Source: a virus. Taken from it: a stretch of 20,422 bases of DNA. A model generated the notes under the pieces. It saw only the letters and a list, made by a program, of their open reading frames with translations, was not told the DNA's origin and did not search any database. Where the stretch lies: IMG/VR virus record IMGVR_UViG_3300010885_038235, positions 1-20,422 of that record. One strand, written 5' to 3'. Below are positions 150-12,145 of this stretch, piece by piece (position 1 is the stretch's first letter; each line of letters starts with the position of its first letter). A program made the translations under genes and the position numbers.

Positions 150-652
150 TGTGGCGCGAGTCGCATCGGGCGGACCTAAAAAGCCGCCTTCTCGCGGACA
201 GGCACTACAACCGACAGAAACCCGGCACGCCTCAGTTCGTACCGCCAGGGCGCTGTGTGGTGTTTTATGCCGGCGTGCCGGGGGCCGAGGCGTTCTGGGT
301 TACGTCTTGGCCGTTTGCGGAGTATGTGAAACACGCATGGGCTGGAGCATGGGTGTGCTCGGCCTTTCGCAACGAGGGAGCCGGACGCGCACAAGACCTG
401 ATCAGACAAGCCGTAGCCGCGACGAAAGCCGTTTGGGAGCCGCCGTCACTAGGAATGATTACCTTCGTGGATAGGCGTAAGGTGAAGCCTACGCTAGTGC
501 GTGGGGCGAAGGTGTGGGGCTGGACTTACCGCAAAGCGGGCTTTCACGAAGTAGGAGAAACGAAGGGAGGCCTACTGGCGCTTCAACTATTGCCGGCCGA
601 CATGCCGCCGGCCGAGCGTGCGCTGCTGGACCTTGAGGTAGGTGGTATTTGA
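146..652 (+). CDS. GNAT-fold protein of a conserved phage family, possibly Mom-like
   Basis: A 168-residue protein. The N-terminus (about residues 14-36) carries ADRHYNRQKPGTPQFVPPGR. The middle has VTSWPFAEY and CSAFRNEG, and the C-terminal half has a hydrophobic strand GMITFVD followed by YRKAGF and a GLLALQLLP strand. The strand plus YRKAGF arrangement is typical of acyltransferases of the GNAT superfamily. The overall pattern matches a family common in phage genomes and usually left as hypothetical. I relate it cautiously to the Mom-type DNA-modifying GNAT relatives, where Mu Mom modifies adenine in phage DNA. That link comes from memory of family patterns; substrate and DNA modification are inference. 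Start ATG 146 overlaps the upstream stop, with GGGAGGAG just before it. Its stop overlaps the terminase TTG. Base composition is visibly less G+C rich than the terminase, which suggests separate acquisition. Confidence 0.6.
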   Translation: MMWRESHRADLKSRLLADRHYNRQKPGTPQFVPPGRCVVFYAGVPGAEAFWVTSWPFAEYVKHAWAGAWVCSAFRNEGAGRAQDLIRQAVAATKAVWEPPSLGMITFVDRRKVKPTLVRGAKVWGWTYRKAGFHEVGETKGGLLALQLLPADMPPAERALLDLEVGGI

Positions 653-2175
653 GCAGCCTGGCACAACGACTCGAGGGCATGTCGGCCGGCGACGAGGCGT
701 GGCTCGACGCCGAGCAGGGCTGGATCAGGGCCGCGCGTCCGAACCAGGTGCTGCCCATCTCGGGCTGGGCACTCGCCATCGCGCAATCGGGCCGCGGCTT
801 CGGCAAGACGATGATGGGCGCCTCGCTGGTGCGACGCTGGGCGGGCATGTTCCCTGGCTGCGTCATCCACGCCATCGCGCCCTCGCACGCCGACTTGATC
901 GGCACGATGTTCAACGGCATCTCGGGCATCATGTCGGTGTGCCCGGCGCCGATGATCGCGAGTGTCAATTTCTCCGACGCCATCCCGACGATCCGCTTCT
1001 ACAACGGCTCCATCGTGCGCGGCTTCAGCTCGGAGTCGCCCGACCGCCTTCGTGGTCCGCAGGCGACGTTCGTGTGGGGCGACGAGATCGCGGCCTGGCG
1101 CAACGCCGAGGAGACGCTGACCAACATCGACATGTCGACGCGTATCGTGTTCCGGCAGGCCGACGGCACGCTGGTTCAGCCGCAGCGCTTCTACACGACG
1201 ACGCCGCGTCCGCTGAAGTGGCTGGCCGACCTGATCAAGCGCGCGGGCAAGTTCGTGATCCGCGGCTCGACCTACGACAACCGCGCCAACCTGGCCGAGT
1301 CGTTCCTGAAGGAGATCGAGCAGTACGAGGAGACGCAGATCGGCCGCCAGGAAATCCATGGCGAGCTGATCGACATAGGCGAGTCGGCGATCATCAAGCG
1401 GAGCTGGCTGAAGCTGTGGCCCAACGCGCAGCCGCTGCCGTGGTTCGAGTTCGTCATGGTCAGCATGGACACAGCGTTCACCGAGAAGGCCTACGACAAG
1501 AAGTCGTTCGAGGCCGACCCCACCGCCTGCGGGACATGGGGCGTGTTCATGCACGACAAGAAATGGAACCTGATGCTGCTCGAGTTCTGGAAGGACCACC
1601 TCGGCTTCCCGGCGCTCGTCGCCGCCGCGCGCAAGGAGATGCGGGCGATCTACGGCCGGCGCCGCGAGATTCTGTTCAAGCCAGTCGTCGGTTCGCGGCA
1701 CGAGTTCGAGCAGATCAAGCGCCCCGACCTGCTGATCATCGAGGACAAGGGCTCGGGCATCTCGCTGCGCCAAATGCTGGCGCAGGAAGGCCAGGACAGC
1801 TACCCCTACAACCCCGGCAATGCCGACAAGATGAGCCGCCTGCACTCGGTGTCGCATGTCGCCGCCGGCGGGCGCATCTGGTTGCCGGAGAGCAGCCGCA
1901 ATCCCGGCAATCCGCGCGACTGGGTCGAGCCGATGCTCGACGAGCTGTGTGTCTACTCGGGGCCGGGCACGACTCCGCACGACGACGTCGTCGATATGGC
2001 AAGCCAGGCGTGGCGCGTCTTCGCCGACCGCTGGCTGTCGGCGGGTCTCAGTGCTAAGGTAGCGCCGGATGGGCTGTCGATTATCGTCGACCCCGAATTG
2101 ACCGGGATACCGGGCGAGGACCGCCTGCCCGGCGAGTATCACGAGACCCCGAGCGAGGAGTCGGCGTATGGATGA
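649..2175 (+). CDS. terL: Terminase large subunit (packaging ATPase and nuclease)
   Basis: A 508-residue packaging motor, which docks on the portal, pumps DNA into the procapsid and cuts concatemers. The ATPase half has Walker A QSGRGFGKT (residues 46-54), Walker B TFVWGDE with D145/E146, and a coupling-type motif TTTPRP. The RNase H-fold nuclease half shows the expected acidic triad: D274 in VSMDTAF, E365/D366 in IEDKGSG, and D445/D446/D449 in HDDVVD. Length is normal for the family. The start is TTG at 649. It is the first in-frame start after a stop at 634-636, has GAGGT at 635-639 upstream and overlaps the previous stop as TTGA. ATG 679 is a weaker alternative. All key residues are present, so the enzyme should be active. 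Confidence 0.95.
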   Translation: MSSLAQRLEGMSAGDEAWLDAEQGWIRAARPNQVLPISGWALAIAQSGRGFGKTMMGASLVRRWAGMFPGCVIHAIAPSHADLIGTMFNGISGIMSVCPAPMIASVNFSDAIPTIRFYNGSIVRGFSSESPDRLRGPQATFVWGDEIAAWRNAEETLTNIDMSTRIVFRQADGTLVQPQRFYTTTPRPLKWLADLIKRAGKFVIRGSTYDNRANLAESFLKEIEQYEETQIGRQEIHGELIDIGESAIIKRSWLKLWPNAQPLPWFEFVMVSMDTAFTEKAYDKKSFEADPTACGTWGVFMHDKKWNLMLLEFWKDHLGFPALVAAARKEMRAIYGRRREILFKPVVGSRHEFEQIKRPDLLIIEDKGSGISLRQMLAQEGQDSYPYNPGNADKMSRLHSVSHVAAGGRIWLPESSRNPGNPRDWVEPMLDELCVYSGPGTTPHDDVVDMASQAWRVFADRWLSAGLSAKVAPDGLSIIVDPELTGIPGEDRLPGEYHETPSEESAYG

Positions 2176-2187
2176 TGGAGCAAGACA

Positions 2188-2454
2188 TTGGCCGTGAACC
2201 CCGACGTATTGGTGAGCGTCTGGTCTTTCGACGACTTCTCGCGCCGCGTCGCGACGAAGTTGTTCCAGGACTTGGAGTCGGATGACGGGGGCATCAAACG
2301 GAAGGCGCAGTACGCGATCCTTGCATTGGCCTCGACGCTCGACGCGCTCGAACATGATGACGCAGGCCAAGTACGAAAAGCCAATGCGTATCTCGAAATC
2401 ATATACCCGACACCTCTTCCCGCCGATGCGGGATCAACGGATGACTTCTCATGA
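2188..2454 (+). CDS. Small helical protein of unknown function
   Basis: An 88-residue acidic protein, mostly predicted helix (WSFDDFSRRVATKLFQDL; AQYAILALASTLDALEHD), with no membrane segment and no motif I recognise. I choose TTG 2188 because GGAG at 2177-2180 lies 7 bases upstream; GTG 2194 would be too far from it. It begins 12 bases after the terminase stop and ends by overlapping the ATG of the DHH gene (ATGA at 2451-2454). Its codon use is less G+C biased than the terminase, suggesting an acquired accessory gene. Coupling to the DHH gene makes a partner role possible, but that is inference. Confidence 0.65.
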   Translation: MAVNPDVLVSVWSFDDFSRRVATKLFQDLESDDGGIKRKAQYAILALASTLDALEHDDAGQVRKANAYLEIIYPTPLPADAGSTDDFS

Positions 2455-3530
2455 CCGACGACAACGTGGTCGACCTCGCCCGCCGCACCGGCGCCTCGAC
2501 GCACGAGGTCTCGACCGAGCCCTTGCCGCGCCTCGCCGACGCGCCGCCCGACCCCAAGGACATCGTCCTGTGCATCTTCCACCGGAACTGCCTCGACGGA
2601 TTCGGCGCCGCCTGGGCGGTGCGCAAGGCGGCGATGCGCGACCGCGTTCCTGTCGAGATCATCGACGCCGCCTACGGCGATGCGCCGCCGCCCGAGGCCG
2701 ACATCGCCGGGCGTCATGTGCTGATCGTCGACTTCAGCTACCCGCGTGCGGCGCTCGAGGAGATGGCGCGTCACGCCCGCTCGGTGATCGTGCTCGATCA
2801 TCACGTCACAGCCCGCGACGCGCTGGTCGGCCTGCCGGAGCCCCTGCGCTACTCGAAGTGGGAGCGCCAGAAGGTCGGCTACGGCTTCGCCAGGACGCTG
2901 CCCGACCTGCCGGTGGGCACGCTGCCGCTGGCGGCGATCTTCGATATGGAGCGCAGCGGCGCGGGCCTCGTGTGGGATTTCTTCTTCCCCTTCGTGAAGC
3001 GGCCCGTCCTGATCGACCAGATCGAGGACCGCGACCTGTGGAAGTTCCGCTTCAAGACCACGCGCGACGTCGCGGCCTGCCTGGCGAGCTACCCCAAAGA
3101 CTTCGGCATCTGGGACCAGATCGCGGCCTCGCTGGAAGACCGCGTGAAGCGCGACATGATCGTGACCGCCGGCAACGCCATCAATCGTAAGCTCCAGCAG
3201 GACATCGCGAGCCTGCTGGCGACGACGGCCCGCCGCATGAAGATCGGCGGCCACGACGTGCCGGTGGCCAACCTGCCGCCGATGTGGGCGAGCGAGGCGG
3301 GCAACATCCTGGCCAAGGGGGAGCCGTTCGCCGCCACCTACTACGACCGCAACGACGGCAAGCGGGCGTGGTCGCTGCGGTCGAGCGACGCCGGTCTCGA
3401 CGTGAGTGAGATCGCGAAGATGTATGCTGGCGGCGGCCACCGAAATGCCAGCGGATTTGCAACTGAATTGGGATGGGAAGGAGACCGCGATGGACTTCAG
3501 CGAAGCACTGACGAGCCTGAAGGCCGGTAA
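2451..3530 (+). CDS. DHH/DHHA1 phosphoesterase (NrnB/COG2404-like)
   Basis: A 359-residue predicted metal-dependent phosphodiesterase of the DHH superfamily. Motif I is HRNCLDGFGAAW (H44, D49), a following strand ends in IVDFSYP (D94), the signature motif is VLDHHVTA (D116-H117-H118), and the C-terminal DHHA1 substrate-binding motif is GGGHRNASGF (327-336). Both catalytic and binding lobes look intact. The motif I wording and layout resemble COG2404, annotated as NrnB oligoribonuclease or cyclic nucleotide phosphodiesterase. Family members cut short oligonucleotides or linear and cyclic nucleotides with Mn2+. The substrate cannot be read from sequence. It overlaps the upstream gene by 4 bases and the Tad2-like gene by 41, so the three are co-translated. 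It could serve nucleotide recycling; given its neighbour, clearing immune signalling nucleotides is also possible (inference). Confidence 0.88.
   Translation: MTDDNVVDLARRTGASTHEVSTEPLPRLADAPPDPKDIVLCIFHRNCLDGFGAAWAVRKAAMRDRVPVEIIDAAYGDAPPPEADIAGRHVLIVDFSYPRAALEEMARHARSVIVLDHHVTARDALVGLPEPLRYSKWERQKVGYGFARTLPDLPVGTLPLAAIFDMERSGAGLVWDFFFPFVKRPVLIDQIEDRDLWKFRFKTTRDVAACLASYPKDFGIWDQIAASLEDRVKRDMIVTAGNAINRKLQQDIASLLATTARRMKIGGHDVPVANLPPMWASEAGNILAKGEPFAATYYDRNDGKRAWSLRSSDAGLDVSEIAKMYAGGGHRNASGFATELGWEGDRDGLQRSTDEPEGR
3478..3483 (+). promoter_or_regulatory. Ribosome binding site fixing the Tad2-like start
   Basis: AAGGAG lies inside the 3' end of the DHH gene, 6 bases before ATG 3490. It decides between ATG 3490 and the longer in-frame start at 3406. 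The 28 residues added by the longer start look like readthrough of the DHH coding region and do not fit the DUF2829 family, which begins right at MDFSEAL. Confidence 0.75.
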
Positions 3531-3735
3531 GCGCGTTGCGCGAGCCGGCTGGAACGGCAAGGGGATGTGGCTCGTCTTGGTCGAAGCGAAGCGGGGCGGC
3601 CACTGGATCAATCAGGCCGTCTACGACACGATGGCCTACATCGGCATGAAACCGGCGGGCGACGGCGTCGCTATCGTGCCCTGGCTGTGCAGCCAGACCG
3701 ACATGCTGGCCGAGGATTGGCAGGCCGTCGGCTAG
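3490..3735 (+). CDS. tad2: Tad2-like Thoeris anti-defence protein (DUF2829)
   Basis: An 81-residue protein matching the DUF2829 pattern end to end. The N-terminus is MDFSEALTSLKAGKRVAR, followed by the signature WNGKGMWL (residues 21-28), then PW (64-65) and the C-terminal SQTDMLAEDW (68-77). Length and termini match the family. Characterised Tad2 proteins are small phage proteins that oligomerise and sequester the glycocyclic ADP-ribose signal made by the Thoeris TIR protein ThsB, which prevents activation of the effector ThsA. Some homologues also bind CBASS cyclic dinucleotides. Activity here is inferred from family membership; DUF2829 is widespread and few members have been tested. It overlaps the 3' end of the DHH gene by 41 bases and has its own strong ribosome binding site, so it is likely made with that enzyme. 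Confidence 0.85.
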   Translation: MDFSEALTSLKAGKRVARAGWNGKGMWLVLVEAKRGGHWINQAVYDTMAYIGMKPAGDGVAIVPWLCSQTDMLAEDWQAVG

Positions 3736-3804: not shown

Positions 3805-6800
3805 ATGGCAAACCCCGTTTTGAAGATCGCCAAATGGGCGGGGGATGCCCTCAAGACGATCCCCCGTGCCGCGGACGAGTCCCGCATCTCGACGCGCTTC
3901 CCGACGGCGGTCAATGCCGTCGAAGACCCGCAGCGGCTCCATCTATCCACGGGTGTCCCAGAGCTGATGCTGTTTCCGAAACTCGCGGAGCACAACACAG
4001 GCCTTATCGACCGGTATCCCGGCTTCCATTCGTCGGACATGCCTGGGATGGAGCCCCGCGAGCGCGCCGCCTCATACATCGATCAGGCCGTCGACAACCT
4101 GCGCTACCTGTACAACCGCGCGCCGCAGGAGATACGCGACAGGGCTCCCCACTGGTACCCCGGCGTCCGCGACCTGAACGGCACCTGGGCGACACGGTAC
4201 GGGGTCCCGCCCGAGGCCGTCGCCGGGGTCAACGCGAGCCTGTCTCCCCAGAAGGACTGGTTTCAGAACGCGTCGCTGGGAGAGCGTGTCCTCGACATCG
4301 TTCACAACCAGCGTCGAACTCCGATGACGCCCGAGATGATTTCGGCGCAGGCGACGCAGAAGAGCCTGAAGGAGCTGCGCAAGCCTGAGACGCAGGAAGT
4401 TTTCGACCGCATCAAGGGCGCACGGTACTCCGACCTCGAAGACCCGGTGGACAAGGCGCTGTGGGTCCGCCTTTACGACGAAGCCCACAACCCTCGTCAC
4501 TACCGGGTCATCAACCCCGAGGGCACCTTCGGCGACTACGCGACGAACCTGAATGGCAAACGATCCGGCGTGGCCTGGGGCTCGCTGCCGACCATCGGCA
4601 AGGCGATCCAGTCCGCGGAGAGTGGCGGCAACATGGACCTGATCAGCAGGCTCATGGGCGACCAGAACAAGGTCCGCAGCTTCTACAACAACGGCATGGT
4701 TCCCCACGACACCCGCTTCGGCGATCTTACTGCCGACACGCACGCCGTGGCCGCCAACCAGCTCCGCGCCCTGTCTGGGAATTCGGAGGCGGTGGCGCAC
4801 AACTTCGGGAGCGGCCTTGAAAAGAAACACCAGCTCCCAGGTTACCGCGGGCCATCCAATTCAACGATCACCGGGGTCAAGGGCACCTACGGCATGAACG
4901 CCGACGCGTATCGGCAGTTCGGCGACGAGCTGGGCGTTCTCCCCCGTGAGGTGCAATCGGTGACGTGGGAGGCTATTCGAAGCCTCTTCCCCGACACGTT
5001 CAAGCAGTCCAAGAAAAACGTCAATATGGTCGACGACATCTGGCGCGCGAAGGACGCGGGGTCGATCAGCCCGTCGGCTGCTCGGGAGATGATCGAGGAG
5101 AAGGCGGGGGGTTTCCGGCTGCCGGATTGGGCCAAGCCTGGTGGCCTCGAGTTTGACCCGTACAGCTACAAGACCTACGCCGAGGGCGGCACTGTCGATG
5201 GCATTGTCGATGGGCCGACCAACGTCCCCGGCCTCGGCTACGACGACTCGATGGGCGCCCCCGACTCGTTCTTCAACACGCCGCCCTCGGACATCACGCT
5301 GCCGCCGGCCCAGGTGTACGCCAAAGGGGGCGCCTTCCGGCACGTTGACCCCCAAGCCTTCAACGAGGCACTGGACGGGCGCCAGACGCCGTGGGCGGAA
5401 CTGGAGCGCTACGAGGCGGCGAAGCGCCAGCACGAGGCCGCGGCGTTGCCTGTCCGCCAGGCCAGCGGCCCCCCGATAAACCTGCACCCGAACGCGCCGT
5501 CGCCTTTCTCTGCCCCGCCGCCGTCGCCGTCGCGCCCCATGCAGCCGATGGAGATTATCAACCGGCTCGCCGGCCGCCCCTCGCCGCCTCCCGAACCAAC
5601 GACCGCCGAGTGGCGTCCTTCGCCGTGGCCGGCTCCTCCCGGAGAGATGCCGCCGATCCATTTCCCGCAGCCTGTTGCCCCCGAGCGCGGCTACTCGCTG
5701 CCGGAGAACCGCGGCCCCGCGTCGGCGATGCCGCGTGGGCAGGAGACGGCACTGGAGATGATGTGGCGGCTGCTGGGGGGCCGCGGCTACGCCGACGGCG
5801 GGCCGGTGCAGCACTACGATGGCGGTGGTGGTGTGAAGGCAGCCCCGGTCAGCGCGCTTCGGAAGACGATCGAAGTCGCCAAGGGCAGCACCCTCGGCGA
5901 CGTGCGCCGTTGGATCGAGAAGTACACGCAGCCTGTCCAGAAAGAGCGCTTCGACAAGCTGGAGTCCCAGGCCGACTTGAGTCGTTTCAACGAGAGCACG
6001 TTGCAACGCCTGTTCGCGGATCGCGACGCCAGCCTGCTGACAACGATGCCGCCCGGCGACTTCGAACGGTTCGCGCCGCGCCTGCCGGCGGATCGCCTCA
6101 ACAGCGTGCCCTACGCGCGCTGGAACAACACCGACACGACGTGGGGCGTGCCGAAGAAGTTGGCGCCGAGCGACATGACCTACGCCAATTTCATGGAGCA
6201 TCTGAAAGGCACCGCAACGGAAGGCGGCGGCTTCGCGCCGACCCGCGAGTATGGCGAATGGAATTCCGGCGTCCCGACGCTGACGATGGGCCGCCACTAC
6301 GGCGATCCCTGGAGCGACATTGTCACGCACAACGGCCGGCATCGCGCTCGAGCGCTGGGTTACATGGGCGATCCGACCATGCCGGTGCAGCTCCAGCCGG
6401 CGAATATTGGCGAGCTGCGCGAGCCCGACGTGGCGACGCGTCTTAAGCAGATGCAGGAGAAGTATTTCCCTCTCGGCCGCGACTCGAAGTTTTTTCCGCA
6501 GCCCGATGGTGCGCCGCGCGACCCGACGACGTTTCCGAAGATGCCCTTCGCCGAGGGCGGCCCAGTCGACGACATGCAGGCCTACCACACCATGTTCTAC
6601 GACCACGGTGGCGCGGTCGGCATGAATAACGGCGGCAAGACTCCGGTTGCTGGCGTCCTCGACATGGCGCGCTGGCTGAAGCGCCTGATGAAGGATGCGC
6701 CGGTCAACATCGCCGTGCCCGAACGCCACGTCGAGGACATCATCAAGGACGGACGCTTCAAGACGCAGTTCGAGACGGGCCACAGCCGCGGCAGCTTCGA

Positions 6801-7764
6801 CCCGGCGTACCGCAGCGATCTCGAGCACCGCCTCTTCGGCACCGATCCCGGCATCGACCCGATGTACCGGCCGATCTACGGACACCTCGGCGATCTCGAT
6901 ACACTGGACAGTGCCGGCCACTACGGAGACATGAAGGCCGTGCTCCACGACGCGGTGAAGCCGCGGTCGACGTTCACGGTTGGCGACAGCTTCGGAATCG
7001 GCGGCGCGGGTGGATTTCGAAAGGGGCCTTTCCGCTTCGCCAAGTTCAGCGACTACGACAACCGTGATCCTGTCACGGCGTGGCTTAACGCGGAGCGCGA
7101 ATTCAAAGCGAACGCCGAGTACCCGCCGACCCTGCCGAGGCTGGCGCGCCAGCACTCATATGTCGAGACGCAGACCCACGGCGGCGTTCCCTGGAGCGCC
7201 GTGAACGCGCTCGTGCATCACTACCCCGACGCGTATCGGTTGAAGCCGCTGCACGAGAAGACGATGCAGGGTTTCGCAGACATGGGCGGCGTCCCGAACT
7301 ACATGCCCGACGTCTTCGGGGGCCATCTTCCACAGGAAGCGGAACGCTGGCTCAAGGCTACGCCGGGCGCCTCGCGCGTCGAGACGATCCCGCGCGAGCA
7401 ACTTGCGGAGATCGGGTATTTGCCGAAGCTGTTCGGGAAGGAGGCGCCGCTGTTTGGGCGGCCCGAGCCATCGTCAACGACGCCGGGACGTGGTGTGCTC
7501 AACGACCGGGATCACGCCGATCTCTTGCGCCAACTAGCCGCCCTCACGGGCAAGGGGGGCGGCGGCGCGGGTTCTCCTGCCGCGCCGCACCTCAGCCCGA
7601 GTGCCTTTGACCTGGAGATGTACCGGTACTTCGACAAGGCCGAGGGCGGATCGACCAACGACGACTTTGCCAAATACGGCGTGATGTACTACGACCACGG
7701 CGGCGAGGTCGCCCCCGGCGCTTACGCCGACGAGGGTGGCTACTTCCGCGGGGCCTACGCATGA
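3805..7764 (+). CDS. Giant multidomain (polyvalent-type) phage protein
   Basis: A 1319-residue protein, the largest in the window. Block 1 (about 30-420) has motifs SPQKDWFQN and KVRSFYNNG...TADTHAVAANQL, resembling a conserved uncharacterised phage domain (possibly DUF7178). Block 2 (about 490-660) is Pro-rich and looks disordered. Block 3 (about 677-910) has HNGRHRARALG, the ParB/sulfiredoxin-type signature. Block 4 (about 945-1250) has RPIYGHL, HYGDMKAVL, RSTFTVGDS and YVETQTHGGV, resembling DUF3626 or other ADP-ribosyltransferase-like domains. Blocks 1 to 4 are separated or followed by [YF]xxGGx[VF] motifs. Such modular proteins fit the polyvalent class, some of which are packaged and injected; that role is inference. 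ATG 3805 has AAGGAG 11 bases upstream. The stop overlaps the portal start (ATGA). No signal peptide or membrane segment is visible. The reading frame is intact throughout; domain names are low to moderate confidence. Confidence 0.75.
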   Translation: MANPVLKIAKWAGDALKTIPRAADESRISTRFPTAVNAVEDPQRLHLSTGVPELMLFPKLAEHNTGLIDRYPGFHSSDMPGMEPRERAASYIDQAVDNLRYLYNRAPQEIRDRAPHWYPGVRDLNGTWATRYGVPPEAVAGVNASLSPQKDWFQNASLGERVLDIVHNQRRTPMTPEMISAQATQKSLKELRKPETQEVFDRIKGARYSDLEDPVDKALWVRLYDEAHNPRHYRVINPEGTFGDYATNLNGKRSGVAWGSLPTIGKAIQSAESGGNMDLISRLMGDQNKVRSFYNNGMVPHDTRFGDLTADTHAVAANQLRALSGNSEAVAHNFGSGLEKKHQLPGYRGPSNSTITGVKGTYGMNADAYRQFGDELGVLPREVQSVTWEAIRSLFPDTFKQSKKNVNMVDDIWRAKDAGSISPSAAREMIEEKAGGFRLPDWAKPGGLEFDPYSYKTYAEGGTVDGIVDGPTNVPGLGYDDSMGAPDSFFNTPPSDITLPPAQVYAKGGAFRHVDPQAFNEALDGRQTPWAELERYEAAKRQHEAAALPVRQASGPPINLHPNAPSPFSAPPPSPSRPMQPMEIINRLAGRPSPPPEPTTAEWRPSPWPAPPGEMPPIHFPQPVAPERGYSLPENRGPASAMPRGQETALEMMWRLLGGRGYADGGPVQHYDGGGGVKAAPVSALRKTIEVAKGSTLGDVRRWIEKYTQPVQKERFDKLESQADLSRFNESTLQRLFADRDASLLTTMPPGDFERFAPRLPADRLNSVPYARWNNTDTTWGVPKKLAPSDMTYANFMEHLKGTATEGGGFAPTREYGEWNSGVPTLTMGRHYGDPWSDIVTHNGRHRARALGYMGDPTMPVQLQPANIGELREPDVATRLKQMQEKYFPLGRDSKFFPQPDGAPRDPTTFPKMPFAEGGPVDDMQAYHTMFYDHGGAVGMNNGGKTPVAGVLDMARWLKRLMKDAPVNIAVPERHVEDIIKDGRFKTQFETGHSRGSFDPAYRSDLEHRLFGTDPGIDPMYRPIYGHLGDLDTLDSAGHYGDMKAVLHDAVKPRSTFTVGDSFGIGGAGGFRKGPFRFAKFSDYDNRDPVTAWLNAEREFKANAEYPPTLPRLARQHSYVETQTHGGVPWSAVNALVHHYPDAYRLKPLHEKTMQGFADMGGVPNYMPDVFGGHLPQEAERWLKATPGASRVETIPREQLAEIGYLPKLFGKEAPLFGRPEPSSTTPGRGVLNDRDHADLLRQLAALTGKGGGGAGSPAAPHLSPSAFDLEMYRYFDKAEGGSTNDDFAKYGVMYYDHGGEVAPGAYADEGGYFRGAYA
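5176..7710 (+). repeat. Recurring aromatic-x-x-Gly-Gly-x-Val/Phe peptide motif
   Basis: Within the 1319-residue protein the pattern [YF]xxGGx[VF] recurs: YAEGGTV (458-464), YAKGGAF (505-511), YADGGPV (662-668), FAEGGPV (915-921), YDHGGAV (932-938) and YDHGGEV (1296-1302). Looser copies are KAEGGST near 1281 and YADEGGYF near the C-terminus. Copies sit between the recognisable domain blocks or after the last one. The same pattern, FRQGGSV (residues 55-61), occurs in the separate 98-residue protein at 11005. Confidence 0.8.
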
Positions 7765-10511
7765 GCAACATATCGGGCGCGACACTCGACCCCTACGCCG
7801 AGGCGGGCGCCTCGGAAGAGGTGACGCGCCTGCGCACGGCCCTGCCGCCCGGCGGCGCCATCACGCTGAACGACGACGGCACTGCCACGGTCAACGACCC
7901 GCAGGACGAGGAGCCCAACGACGTCGAGCACTTCGCCAACCTGGCCGAAGAGATGGACTCGATGGAGCTGGCGCGCATCGCCACCGATCTCCTCGACGCC
8001 ATCGAAGTCGACAAGGAGGCGCGCAAGAAGCGCGACAAGCAATACGAGGAGGCCCTTCGCCGTACCGGCCTGGGCGACGACGCGCCGGGCGGCGCGTCGT
8101 TCAATGGCGCCTCGCGGGCCGTGCATCCGATGCTCACCGAGGCCGCCGTCGACTTCTCGGCGCGCGTCATGTCGGAGCTGATGCCGCCCGATGGCCCCGT
8201 GAAGCAGTGCGTGATCGGCGACCCGACGAACGAGAAGGAAGACCGCGCCAAACGCATCGCGCGGCACATGAACTACCAGATCACGACGGCCATGCCCTCG
8301 GCCTACCACGAGTTCGAGATGGGCCTGACGCAGTGCCCGCTGGCCGGCGGCTACTATACCAAGATGCTGCTCGAGGACGGCCAGCCCGACACGATGTTCG
8401 TGCCTATCGACAAGGTCCACCGGCCCTTCACCGACGGCGACTTCTACAGCCAGCAGCGCATCACCCACGAGCAGGACGTCGACCGCTGGCAGTTCGAGGA
8501 CAACGTCAAGCGCGGCCTGTGGTCGGACGTCGTCAACGCGCTCGGCACTTCCGACTACCTCGACGAGACGCAGTCGGAGATCGCCAACGACCGCATCATC
8601 GGCCGCAACCAGCCGACCGAGAACATCGACGACATCCGCGTCATCTACGAGTGCTCTACGAACCTGGCCCTGACGCCCGACGACGACGTGCTGCCGTACA
8701 TCGTGACCATCGACGTATCGAGCCGCCGTATCTTGTCGATCTACCGAAATTGGAAGCCCAACGACCCAAACCAGAAGCGGCTCGACTTCCTGATCGAGTG
8801 GCCGTTCTGGCCGTGGCGCGGCGGCTATCCTATCGGCATCGCCCACATGATCGGCAGCCTGTCCGGCGTGGCGACGGGCGCGATGCGGGCGCTGCTCGAT
8901 GCGGCGTTCCTCAACAACAGCCAGACCGGTGTGAAGCTCAAGGGTGGCGCCTCGGCCGGTGGCCAGAACGTGCGGCCCCAGGTCGGCCAGACCGTCGAGT
9001 TCCAGGGCTCGCTGGCGATGGACGACATCCGCAAGACCTACATGCCGCTCGAGTTCCCGCCGCCGAACCCGGTGCTGTTCCAGCTCTTGGGTTTTGTCGT
9101 CGATGCCGGCCGCGGAGTCGTCCGCACGACTTTCGACGAGTTCGACAAATTCACGGGCCAGACGCCGGTCGGCACTGCCAACATGATGATCGAGCAGGGC
9201 CTGAAGAATTTCGGCGCCGTGCATGGTCGGCTTCACCGCGCGATGAAGCGCTTCCTCAAGCAGCTCTACGACATCAACGCGCGCACGGTGAAGAACGAGG
9301 AGATCGTCGATCAGTTCGGCGAGCTGCTGGTCACGCGCGAGGACTACAACGGCCCGATGTGCGTGATCCCGGTCAGCGATCCGCGCATCTTCAGCGACAT
9401 GCAGCGCCAGGCGCAGGGCCAGCTCGTGGCGACGCGGGCGCAGATGTGGGCGGCGACCCCAACCCCGGTCTACAAGGTCCGCAACGCCGAGCTGTTCTTC
9501 CTGAAGTCGCAGCGCATCCCGCAGCCCGAAGACCTGCTGATCGACGACCCCAAGGCAACGCAGATGAATGCCGTCGCCGAGAACGTCACGGCCTCGCGCG
9601 GCCTGCCGATCCTGCCCTTCCCCGGCCAGGACCACGAGGCCCATCTGGCGACGCATGCCGCGTACATGCAGGACATGCTCTTCGGCGCCAATCCCATCAT
9701 CGCGCAGAAGTTCCTGCCCATCATCCTGGGCCACCTCGCCGACCACATGGGCATGTGGTACGCTGACGCGACGCTGGATGCCGCCAACGCGGCCCTGCGC
9801 ATCAAGACGGGCAACGAGTCCGTGACCATCGACTCGTTCGCGACGCTGCCGGGTGTCGAAGCCAGCCTCGACCGCCTGCTCGCCGAGCTTCAGCCGGCCA
9901 TCCTGGGCACAGCGCACGAGGTGCTGAAGGACCTGCCGGCGCTGATCGCCAAGGCGCAGATGCTGATGAAGCAGCTCGCGCCGCCGACGCCGATGGACCC
10001 GAGTGTTGTCGCCATGCGCGACGTCGACCGCCAGACGCAGGCCGACCAGGCGAAGACCCAGCTTCAAGTCGTCGAAACGACGAAGAAGGCCGAGCAGCAG
10101 GAGCGACGGGACATTCTCGATGGCCAGAAGGCGGCGGCCGACAATGCCCGAGAGGCCGCTCGTCTGGCACAGGAGACCGCCGATGCCGAGCGCAAGGCGC
10201 AGCAGGAGGCGGCGACCACCGCGGCGCAGCAGCAGCAGCACGAGCAGGACGCCCAGCAGCAGGCCGAGCAGGCCGAGGCCGACCGTCAGATCGAGGAGCA
10301 GCGGGTCGCCGTCCAGGCGCAGGGCAACGAGAGCCGCGAGAATATCGCCGACGGCAACAACGCCTCGCGCGAGAGCATTGCCCAGCAGCACGACTCGACG
10401 ACTATCGAGACGACGCGTATGGATAACGAGACCGCCGAGAGCATCGCGAAGCGTGAGATCGCGGCGGGCAAGAATTCCCGGCTGTCGACCGGCGCGTCGC
10501 TGAACAAGTAG
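7761..10511 (+). CDS. Portal protein with long Gln-rich coiled-coil tail
   Basis: A 916-residue portal, expected to form the dodecameric ring at the capsid vertex through which DNA enters and leaves. About residues 60-650 match the large portal type of short-tailed phages: GASRAVHPMLTEAAVDFSAR, MSELMPPDGPVK, then FLIEWPFWPWRGGYPIGIAH, ALLDAAFLNNSQTG and a stem/clip-like region around residues 410-450. From about residue 760 the chain is Ala/Gln/Glu-rich with coiled-coil character and a run QQQQHEQDAQQQ. It ends in 11-residue repeats. The tail is long and may form an extended barrel; that is inference. The start overlaps the previous stop as ATGA and the gene ends 11 bases before the HNH gene. 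Its position after the terminase insert and before scaffold and capsid genes supports the call. Confidence 0.88.
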   Translation: MSNISGATLDPYAEAGASEEVTRLRTALPPGGAITLNDDGTATVNDPQDEEPNDVEHFANLAEEMDSMELARIATDLLDAIEVDKEARKKRDKQYEEALRRTGLGDDAPGGASFNGASRAVHPMLTEAAVDFSARVMSELMPPDGPVKQCVIGDPTNEKEDRAKRIARHMNYQITTAMPSAYHEFEMGLTQCPLAGGYYTKMLLEDGQPDTMFVPIDKVHRPFTDGDFYSQQRITHEQDVDRWQFEDNVKRGLWSDVVNALGTSDYLDETQSEIANDRIIGRNQPTENIDDIRVIYECSTNLALTPDDDVLPYIVTIDVSSRRILSIYRNWKPNDPNQKRLDFLIEWPFWPWRGGYPIGIAHMIGSLSGVATGAMRALLDAAFLNNSQTGVKLKGGASAGGQNVRPQVGQTVEFQGSLAMDDIRKTYMPLEFPPPNPVLFQLLGFVVDAGRGVVRTTFDEFDKFTGQTPVGTANMMIEQGLKNFGAVHGRLHRAMKRFLKQLYDINARTVKNEEIVDQFGELLVTREDYNGPMCVIPVSDPRIFSDMQRQAQGQLVATRAQMWAATPTPVYKVRNAELFFLKSQRIPQPEDLLIDDPKATQMNAVAENVTASRGLPILPFPGQDHEAHLATHAAYMQDMLFGANPIIAQKFLPIILGHLADHMGMWYADATLDAANAALRIKTGNESVTIDSFATLPGVEASLDRLLAELQPAILGTAHEVLKDLPALIAKAQMLMKQLAPPTPMDPSVVAMRDVDRQTQADQAKTQLQVVETTKKAEQQERRDILDGQKAAADNAREAARLAQETADAERKAQQEAATTAAQQQQHEQDAQQQAEQAEADRQIEEQRVAVQAQGNESRENIADGNNASRESIAQQHDSTTIETTRMDNETAESIAKREIAAGKNSRLSTGASLNK
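10329..10460 (+). repeat. Hendecad (11-residue) repeats in the portal C-terminus
   Basis: Four consecutive 11-residue units cover residues 857-900: ESRENIADGNN, ASRESIAQQHD, STTIETTRMDN and ETAESIAKREI. Units 1, 2 and 4 share the core xx(R/A)E(N/S)IA. An 11-residue period suggests a nearly straight helical bundle or barrel. Confidence 0.7.
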
Positions 10512-11004: not shown

Positions 11005-11301
11005 ATGGCTCGAACCAACGTGTTCACCAAGCTCGGGCGGCCCAAGGGATCGCGCGCAGCCGGACAGCGGCAGATGCCGGACATGGGTACGCCGAGCCTC
11101 GGCGGCATGCCGGGCGGCGGCGCCAGCCCGATGGCCGGCTTCTCGCCGGCGGTGCCGGGCGCGGCCTTCCGTCAGGGCGGCAGCGTCAACGGCTTCAAGA
11201 AGATGGCGAGCCATCACGACGACGAGCGGCTGCGCTCCGGTCACTCCGAGCACGGCCACGAGGACATGCACAACCACTGCCGCGGCGGACGCGCCCGGTA
11301 A
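11005..11301 (+). CDS. Small Gly-rich, His-rich protein with GG motif
   Basis: A 98-residue basic protein with no known fold. Residues 27-45 are Gly/Met/Pro-rich (MGTPSLGGMPGGGASPM). FRQGGSV (55-61) matches the motif repeated in the 1319-residue protein. The tail is His-rich: ASHHDDERLRSGHSEHGH, then HNHCRGGRAR. The His/Cys cluster could bind metal (inference). Similar short proteins with GG motifs and basic tails are common beside portal or capsid genes in phages, with no established role. GGAGGA sits a few bases before ATG 11005, and the gene starts two bases after the HNH stop, so before the HNH inserted it probably followed the portal directly. Confidence 0.75.
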   Translation: MARTNVFTKLGRPKGSRAAGQRQMPDMGTPSLGGMPGGGASPMAGFSPAVPGAAFRQGGSVNGFKKMASHHDDERLRSGHSEHGHEDMHNHCRGGRAR

Positions 11302-11650: not shown

Positions 11651-12145
11651 ATGTTGAACGACGTCATGACGCGGGACCACACCGCCTCGATCCGGGCCGG
11701 TCTCTACGCCTCGGCCGGCTCCGTGCTGGCGGCGCTCGGTCCCCGCTACACCGGCGAGCTGAAGCTCGCCTTCCCGGACGTCGATCCGGGCTACCGCATC
11801 TTCGGCTACAACATCCTCTGCCAGATGAAGATGCCGCGGAAAAAGGCGGGAGGCCTGATCCTCCCCGACGAATCCAAGGACGTCGAGAAGTTCCGCACGC
11901 AGGCTGCGCTGGTGCGCGCCATGGGGCCATCGTCCTTCCACCGCCGCGACACGCTGGAGCCGTGGCCGGAGGGCGCCTGGTGCATCCCCGGCATGTTCGT
12001 GCGGGTGCCGATGTACGGCGGCGACCGGTTCGAGGTCGACGTCATGGTCGGCGGCCAGAAGGAGCAGGTCCTGTTCGCCCTGTTCAAGGACACCGATCTA
12101 ATCGCCGAGCGCATCGGCGACCCACTCAGCACGAAGACGAGCTAG
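11651..12145 (+). CDS. GroES-like co-chaperonin
   Basis: A 164-residue protein with the Cpn10 fold pattern in its C-terminal two thirds. GYRIFGYNILCQM (47-59) is the first strand pair. MPRKKAGGLILPDESKD follows, with GGLIL at 67-71 matching the GroES mobile loop that binds GroEL. Later come ALVRAMGP, the dome-like segment WPEGAWCIPGMFVRVPMYGGDRFEV, and a final VLFALFKDTDLIAERIGDP. GroES is near 97 residues, so this has an extra N-terminal region of about 45. By family knowledge, phage Cpn10 proteins such as T4 gp31 replace host GroES to fold the capsid protein with host GroEL. Placement just before scaffold and capsid genes fits that. A structural use of the fold cannot be excluded. It starts immediately after the previous stop, with AAGGGA upstream. 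Confidence 0.75.
   Translation: MLNDVMTRDHTASIRAGLYASAGSVLAALGPRYTGELKLAFPDVDPGYRIFGYNILCQMKMPRKKAGGLILPDESKDVEKFRTQAALVRAMGPSSFHRRDTLEPWPEGAWCIPGMFVRVPMYGGDRFEVDVMVGGQKEQVLFALFKDTDLIAERIGDPLSTKTS

Follow-up and report, generated by a model that had tools for sequence, protein, structure and literature searches.

T4 Alt, P1 DdrB and the N4 virion RNA polymerase (vRNAP) are precedents for phage proteins carried in the virion, and polyvalent proteins encoded in such a context have been interpreted as packaged (PMC5512222). SopF, whose annotated domain is DUF3626 (PMC6682159), is an established ADP-ribosyltransferase (ART) that works with an I-Y-E triad (PMC10333799). Here we describe a 1319-residue polyvalent-type protein encoded by the IMG/VR virus record IMGVR_UViG_3300010885_038235, which comprises 20,422 bases, may be a fragment, and was analyzed over its full length (the window). 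Its open reading frame (ORF) lies in the interval between the genes for the terminase large subunit (TerL) and the portal protein, directly 5′ of the latter. With a probability of roughly 0.6, we read it as a phage multi-effector protein that combines DUF7178, a ParB-like block and a SopF-type ART, that would be borne by the virion and delivered with the DNA, and whose modules are exchanged in a fixed gene slot.

The ORF is intact; an AGGAG-like stretch precedes its ATG, and at its end the stop codon and the portal start codon overlap in the string ATGA. An initial annotation, made from the letters alone, had placed a 1319-residue ORF immediately upstream of the portal gene and had picked out the strings RPIYGHL, HYGDMKAVL, RSTFTVGDS, YVETQTHGG and HNGRHRARALG; the placement is exact and all five strings are found in the protein. 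The same protein, residue for residue, is encoded on an overlapping contig (L002), which differs at one of 12,175 bases and reaches further upstream, where its ORFs putatively encode a VapE-like protein and a DNA methyltransferase. The single chain holds several distinct effector-type domains (DUF7178, ParB-like, ART). Domain identities, the ART fold, the slot position, module turnover and motif enrichment were computed as set out below.

The C-terminal module (Module 3) matches Pfam DUF3626 at residues 976 through 1063 (35.7 bits against a cut-off of 27, E = 6.5e-9), and PHROG agrees (phrog_8314). Single-sequence scans with Modules 2 and 3 retrieved nothing beyond the window's own virus, so the search moved to alignments and motifs. 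The window domain and five phage homologs led to a family set of 80 viral loci, and iterated profiles fix the core at residues 962 through 1138. Conserved columns among 88 distinct viral rows read GR.K.QFET..S.G...R...E, RP.YG, YG, R[ST]T..DS and Y.E.Q.HGG, and the four strings quoted from this block lie on such columns; the Glu of YVETQ, singled out by the initial annotation, is invariant (Table 1). A profile search of Protein Data Bank (PDB) sequences reaches SopF at E = 1.7e-7; other low-E matches, which cover only a 32-residue helical stretch of repetitive proteins, were ignored. Foldseek with the AlphaFold2 (AF2) model ranks SopF with NAD (7dn9) first (E = 3.6e-7, probability 1.00), followed by DarT (E = 2.6e-3), OspC3 and CopC, all ART-fold enzymes. 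Because sequence profile and Foldseek agree independently on SopF, an ART fold of the DUF3626/SopF type is supported, and enzymatic activity is predicted. An unrelated fold had been named beforehand as the result that would count against the ART assignment; with these matches the assignment stands. Its extent does not, since residues 945 through 1250 shrink to the core. No MuF domain is matched in the protein by Pfam, PHROG or NCBIfam. Elsewhere, one viral protein carries four tandem DUF3626 ART domains (L127:1272-8816) and another three (L134:390-11228).

The strongest domain match, missed by the initial annotation, is N-terminal (Module 1): Pfam DUF7178 at residues 85 through 197 (E = 2.1e-16, exceeding the cut-off), with PHROG in agreement. 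Homology spans residues 27 through 445 in 80 viral loci, with 36 to 50% identity across the module and 39 invariant columns in 33 sequences. The module is mostly α-helical and strongly conserved at SPQKDWFQN, K289..FxNN, T309-D-T-H and Q384-S..WE. DUF7178 is found in 500-residue proteins and in phage proteins of 2,500 to 3,300 residues bearing LPD22, LPD38, ART-PolyVal or RadC; because of this co-occurrence, Module 1 is a typical polyvalent-protein part, and the proposal of a multidomain polyvalent-type protein is supported. A module of related phages (M1, 'SDPKTEINRG...ADSH') was considered as a distant DUF7178, which was not shown (hhalign, 5%).

Module 2, the ParB-like block, has homologs in the slot proteins of six related phages (L240, L229, L239, L228, L223 and L188); these align over nearly the full block (best E = 5e-19 in a small search space). 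In an alignment of eight such modules H.GRHR..A is invariant. A signature scan for the GRHR block gave 48 loci, mostly giant proteins with HEGRHRARAL and up to ∼4000 residues long. Homology to giants retrieved by the module's own motif is circular, so support is taken from the slot modules of the clade; with the motif masked, the score against the giants was reached by 2 of 999 shuffles, which is modest support. A joint alignment of Module 2 and Module 3 homologs was dropped, the ParB-like rows having fallen on Module 3. The "ParB-type" label thus survives as a conserved module with its signature, not as a match to a Pfam or PHROG ParB model. HEGRHRARAL modules are common in phage proteins of 1300 to 4000 residues (L172 through L219); those of the window and of the clade fall outside all Pfam and PHROG models.

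A portal-based scan provided 20 other phages of the same clade. Their gene order is collinear: TerL (E < 1e-170 where present), portal, a small gene, a GroES-like gene, scaffold-like genes and the major capsid protein gene. Where the contig covers the slot, the ORF directly upstream of the portal gene is large (822 to 1699 residues when complete) and its modules differ: JAMM, DUF3626 and an unknown M6 in L231; JAMM, DUF3626 and JAMM in L232; ART-PolyVal-like, JAMM and M1 in L221; ParB, JAMM, M6 and X in L223; ParB, JAMM and M1 in L240; and ParB with further modules in the more distant L188. L236 is the exception, with a short slot ORF only. The JAMM-like call rests on an invariant E...HxHP...PSxxD and weak Prok-JAB matches (E = 0.006 to 0.02), and the ART-PolyVal match in L221 lies below the cut-off (24.1 against 31.2 bits). 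Among the close relatives L228, L229 and L239 nucleotide similarity breaks at a short motif, [YF]A.GG.V, which separates modules in the slot proteins. L239 has an extra module of ∼188 residues between FADGG189 and YADGG378 that has no counterpart in L228, and the extra modules of L229 are bounded by motifs at 36/137 and 286/538. Whole modules are gained, lost and swapped at these connectors in a fixed TerL-portal slot. In more distant portal relatives, unrelated slot proteins also carry the motif (DSL-LC04, with PcfJ; ctpbd312, with GP88). In the cultured relative Pelagibacter phage HTVC027P, gp42, encoded beside portal, has two GG motifs.

The connectors are strongly enriched. In 17 slot ORFs [YFHMLWI]A.GG occurs 55 times, whereas 500 shuffles give 2.9 on average and never more than 9; in other ORFs and frames it occurs 12 times in 90,766 residues. 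None of 56 occurrences of a slightly wider motif class falls inside a module core, though cores cover 53%; as some module borders were drawn using the motif and several slot ORFs are closely related, the nominal probability of this count is overoptimistic. The independently defined DUF7178 and DUF3626 modules likewise have no motif inside their cores. The residue before the GG is variable (E, D, K, R, H, Q, T or A). Because connector codons vary synonymously and follow the codon usage of the gene, the connector is conserved at the protein level. We rejected a DNA recombination site in view of the same codon variation, yet identical short stretches flank one module gain.

Table 1. Features of the polyvalent gene and its surroundings, in window coordinates
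Feature	Position	Strand	Basis or remark
Terminase large subunit, left slot border	649-2175	+	PF03237, E 1.5e-12
DHH-family phosphoesterase, TerL-portal interval	2451-3530	+	phrog_4771, E 4.8e-92; Pfam DHHA1
Tad2-like (Thoeris anti-defence 2) protein	3490-3735	+	PF11195, 84.9 bits vs cut-off 25, E 5.5e-24
Polyvalent-type protein, 1319 residues	3805-7764	+	ATG start
Module 1, DUF7178 / phrog_3842, residues 27-445	3883-5139	+	Pfam, PHROG, homologs
Connector YAEGGTV, residue 458	5176-5196	+	
Connector YAKGGAF, residue 505	5317-5337	+	
Proline-rich low-complexity stretch between connectors	5338-5787	+	No family match
Connector YADGGPV, residue 662	5788-5808	+	
Module 2, ParB-like, residues 690-914	5872-6546	+	Homologous modules in relatives; HNGRHRARALG at ∼6328-6360
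Connector FAEGGPV, residue 915	6547-6567	+	
Module 3, DUF3626 / SopF-type ART domain, residues 962-1138	6688-7218	+	Pfam, iterated profiles, AF2 and Foldseek
Tyr1025 of RPIYG, candidate triad Tyr	6877-6879	+	Kept in 84/87; role inferred from ART fold
Tyr1040, alternative candidate triad Tyr	6922-6924	+	Kept in 85/87
Glu1121 of YVETQ, candidate catalytic Glu	7165-7167	+	Invariant in 87/87 aligned residues
Portal (head-to-tail connecting) protein, right slot border	7761-10511	+	phrog_1216; homologs annotated portal / head to tail connecting
Small protein 3′ of portal	11005-11301	+	One similar motif, AAFRQGGSV

Packaging, ejection, catalytic activity and target we infer as follows. The three modules, joined by repeated [YF]A[ED]GG.V connectors, would form one protein that is probably synthesized late, together with TerL and portal. 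By analogy, it is probably packaged in the virion, given the gene position, the portal overlap and the precedent of T4 Alt, P1 DdrB and N4 vRNAP, and it would then enter the new cell with the DNA; gene position suggests a role as an ejected effector. In that cell the ART module would transfer ADP-ribose from NAD+ to a macromolecule of the host (or of its defence), Glu1121 serving as catalytic residue, and the ParB-like module might act on DNA or nucleotides, an activity that is a guess, as Pfam and PHROG models do not match. In this phage clade the slot is a cassette position, where module swapping presumably matches host defences.

The alternative that fares best, though we consider it doubtful, is synthesis in the infected cell with no packaging at all: the protein would be an accessory factor for host takeover or anti-defence, and its slot just a cargo hot spot shared with the Tad2-like and DHH genes. 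The same interval does encode a DHH phosphoesterase as well as a Tad2-like sponge, and relatives of the latter work within infected cells. Tad2 proteins bind glycocyclic ADP-ribose (gcADPR), cyclic dinucleotides or histidine-ADP-ribose (His-ADPR) (PMC12043709, PMC13299392), and the DHH phosphoesterase possibly degrades signalling nucleotides. The Tad2-like gene lies ∼70 bases upstream of the polyvalent gene. L223 and L226 have a similar gene immediately ahead of the slot, and several DUF7178 phages (L030, L032 and L034 among them) have one between their TerL and portal genes; DHH-like genes are likewise placed in L221, L229, L239 and L240. Such Tad2-like genes also count in favor of the multi-effector reading, and the TerL-portal interval looks like a counter-defence locus. 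Furthermore, L236 and KcrB have no large ORF in the slot, so the slot gene is not an essential structural gene. The translational overlap with the portal gene, the same motif type in the small gene adjoining it, and the interpretation of known polyvalent proteins in such a context as packaged (PMC5512222) all speak against synthesis without packaging, and none is decisive.

Several observations weigh against the multi-effector reading itself. DUF7178 has neither a known function nor a solved relative; Module 2 matches no Pfam or PHROG ParB model (none at E ≤ 5); the AF2 model of Module 3 is moderate (mean predicted local distance difference test [pLDDT] score 72.5, predicted TM-score [pTM] 0.61, TM-scores ∼0.4), its pLDDT exceeding 90 in the first strands; and the window has A1132 where 82 of 87 family members carry D or E. 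In addition, no isolate proved to carry the same slot protein, and the nearest, Caulobacter phages such as KcrB, are those without a large ORF there.

For Module 1, a HhH-GPD-type DNA glycosylase is unlikely and at present not supported. The module locally resembles what we take to be HhH-GPD signatures (SPQKD, the K289/D311 spacing and T.DTHA), and the glycosylase Pa-AGOG has the top Foldseek probability in its list (0.21); that match has E = 1.1, no HhH-GPD Pfam match appears even at E ≤ 10, and hhalign against E. coli Nth gives 0.1%. The AF2 model of Module 1 is good (pLDDT 91) and has no significant fold match in the PDB by Foldseek; matches in BFVD are other phage proteins only, some with an ART-PolyVal domain.

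That the ART-like fold is catalytically dead, serving as a binding module for NAD+, ADP-ribose or nucleic acid, we consider quite improbable. The first triad position is probably not a canonical His or Arg, being mostly Ile or Val at that strand in the family, and A1132 also favors an inactive domain. SopF, however, is active with its I-Y-E triad (PMC10333799), and the window domain retains the Glu, both Tyr and the DS pair. Strand 1 of Module 3 is aliphatic, as in SopF, a comparison of strands rather than of superposed residues. About as improbable is that the connectors are virion-protease cleavage sites, which would release the effectors from one another ahead of packaging or in its course. 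They recur at the borders of modules and at no position within cores, and a similar motif stands in an unrelated small protein, but Pfam and PHROG scans recognize no prohead protease in the window, and the residue before the GG varies among connectors.

Returning to the multi-effector reading, a broader version of it is tentative. A short-tailed phage family might keep an effector cassette gene at the portal gene, with [YF]A.GG.V as more than a flexible spacer: a short functional signal, present also in the small protein beside portal, by which the array is docked or processed for head packaging and which also marks swap points. The family would then maintain a virion-borne, plug-and-play arsenal in which two ART types unrelated to each other stand alongside JAMM-like, ParB-like and unknown modules. 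The small gene just downstream of the portal gene keeps a single F..GG motif in 18 of 18 clade members. In L236 (7657-7977) the slot has shrunk to a 107-residue ORF with several GG motifs, which suggests that connectors may act without effector modules. Several slot proteins have a C-terminal tail of the form C-x-GG..R, as does the small protein encoded after portal (L221:7950-7996, L223:5880-5934, L226:7950-8001 and window 11270-11301), for example LRYCGGGYAR, LRACGGYAR, HCRGGRAR and CGGGKTR; perhaps it is a second sorting tag.

Between the portal gene and this small gene, the window has an HNH endonuclease gene (PF13392; 10523-11002), which was not found at the matching place in relatives and likely encodes a homing endonuclease. 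The gene at 11651-12145 has a weak Cpn10 match (E = 0.11), and genes at the matching position in KcrB, DSL-LC04 and HTVC027P are annotated GroES; a GroES-type co-chaperonin is probable. Searches of the virus found no tRNA or Rfam features, and a genome scan for hosts matched only two contigs from metagenome-assembled genomes of uncultured bacteria.

On a brief literature search, a SopF-type ART in a polyvalent array and a fixed slot with motif-bounded module exchange appear to be new. If the multi-effector reading is true, a SopF-type ART is linked to phage infection, with a bacterial target, and the position 5′ of the portal gene in this phage group is a fixed genomic address at which to seek new injected enzymes of anti-defence or host takeover. 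The sharp module boundaries would then let each part be cloned and tested with ease, and the shared motif would open the entry of internal proteins into phage heads to direct testing.

Compared with DUF3626 (PF12294)/SopF-type ARTs, Module 3 has a profile score above the cut-off, SopF as its nearest fold, and the Tyr and Glu positions kept. It differs from SopF in sitting in a phage multi-domain protein and in an identity of ∼15% over the fold; neither an ARF-binding nor a membrane part is recognized in the window protein, and the target is surely different. DarT DNA ADP-ribosyltransferases provide the second-best fold match, but only at E = 2.6e-3 and with no sequence match, and the window setting is not toxin-antitoxin. 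Mycobacterium phage Tierra gp9 ("capsid maturation protease and ADP-ribosyltransferase") shares a homologous DUF3626 domain and a gene adjoining portal, whereas the window protein has no capsid maturation or MuF domain and has ParB-like and DUF7178 modules; in phage DSL-LC01 a DUF3626 gene comes right after portal. The GRHR giants and DdrB-type ParB domains share the HEGRHRARAL signature in proteins of up to ∼4000 residues, whereas Module 2 lies outside Pfam and PHROG models, with homology beyond the motif that is weak to the giants and firm to the clade modules. The polyvalent proteins known from phages and from conjugative elements (Iyer et al. 2017, PMC5512222) likewise have several effector-type domains per chain and a late head-gene context, and DUF7178 is common to the window protein and those with LPD22, LPD38 and ART-PolyVal. 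The ART described there is of the Tox-ART-HYD2 type, whereas the window protein has a SopF-type ART; a regular short motif also delimits its modules, and their exchange takes place in a single fixed gene slot.

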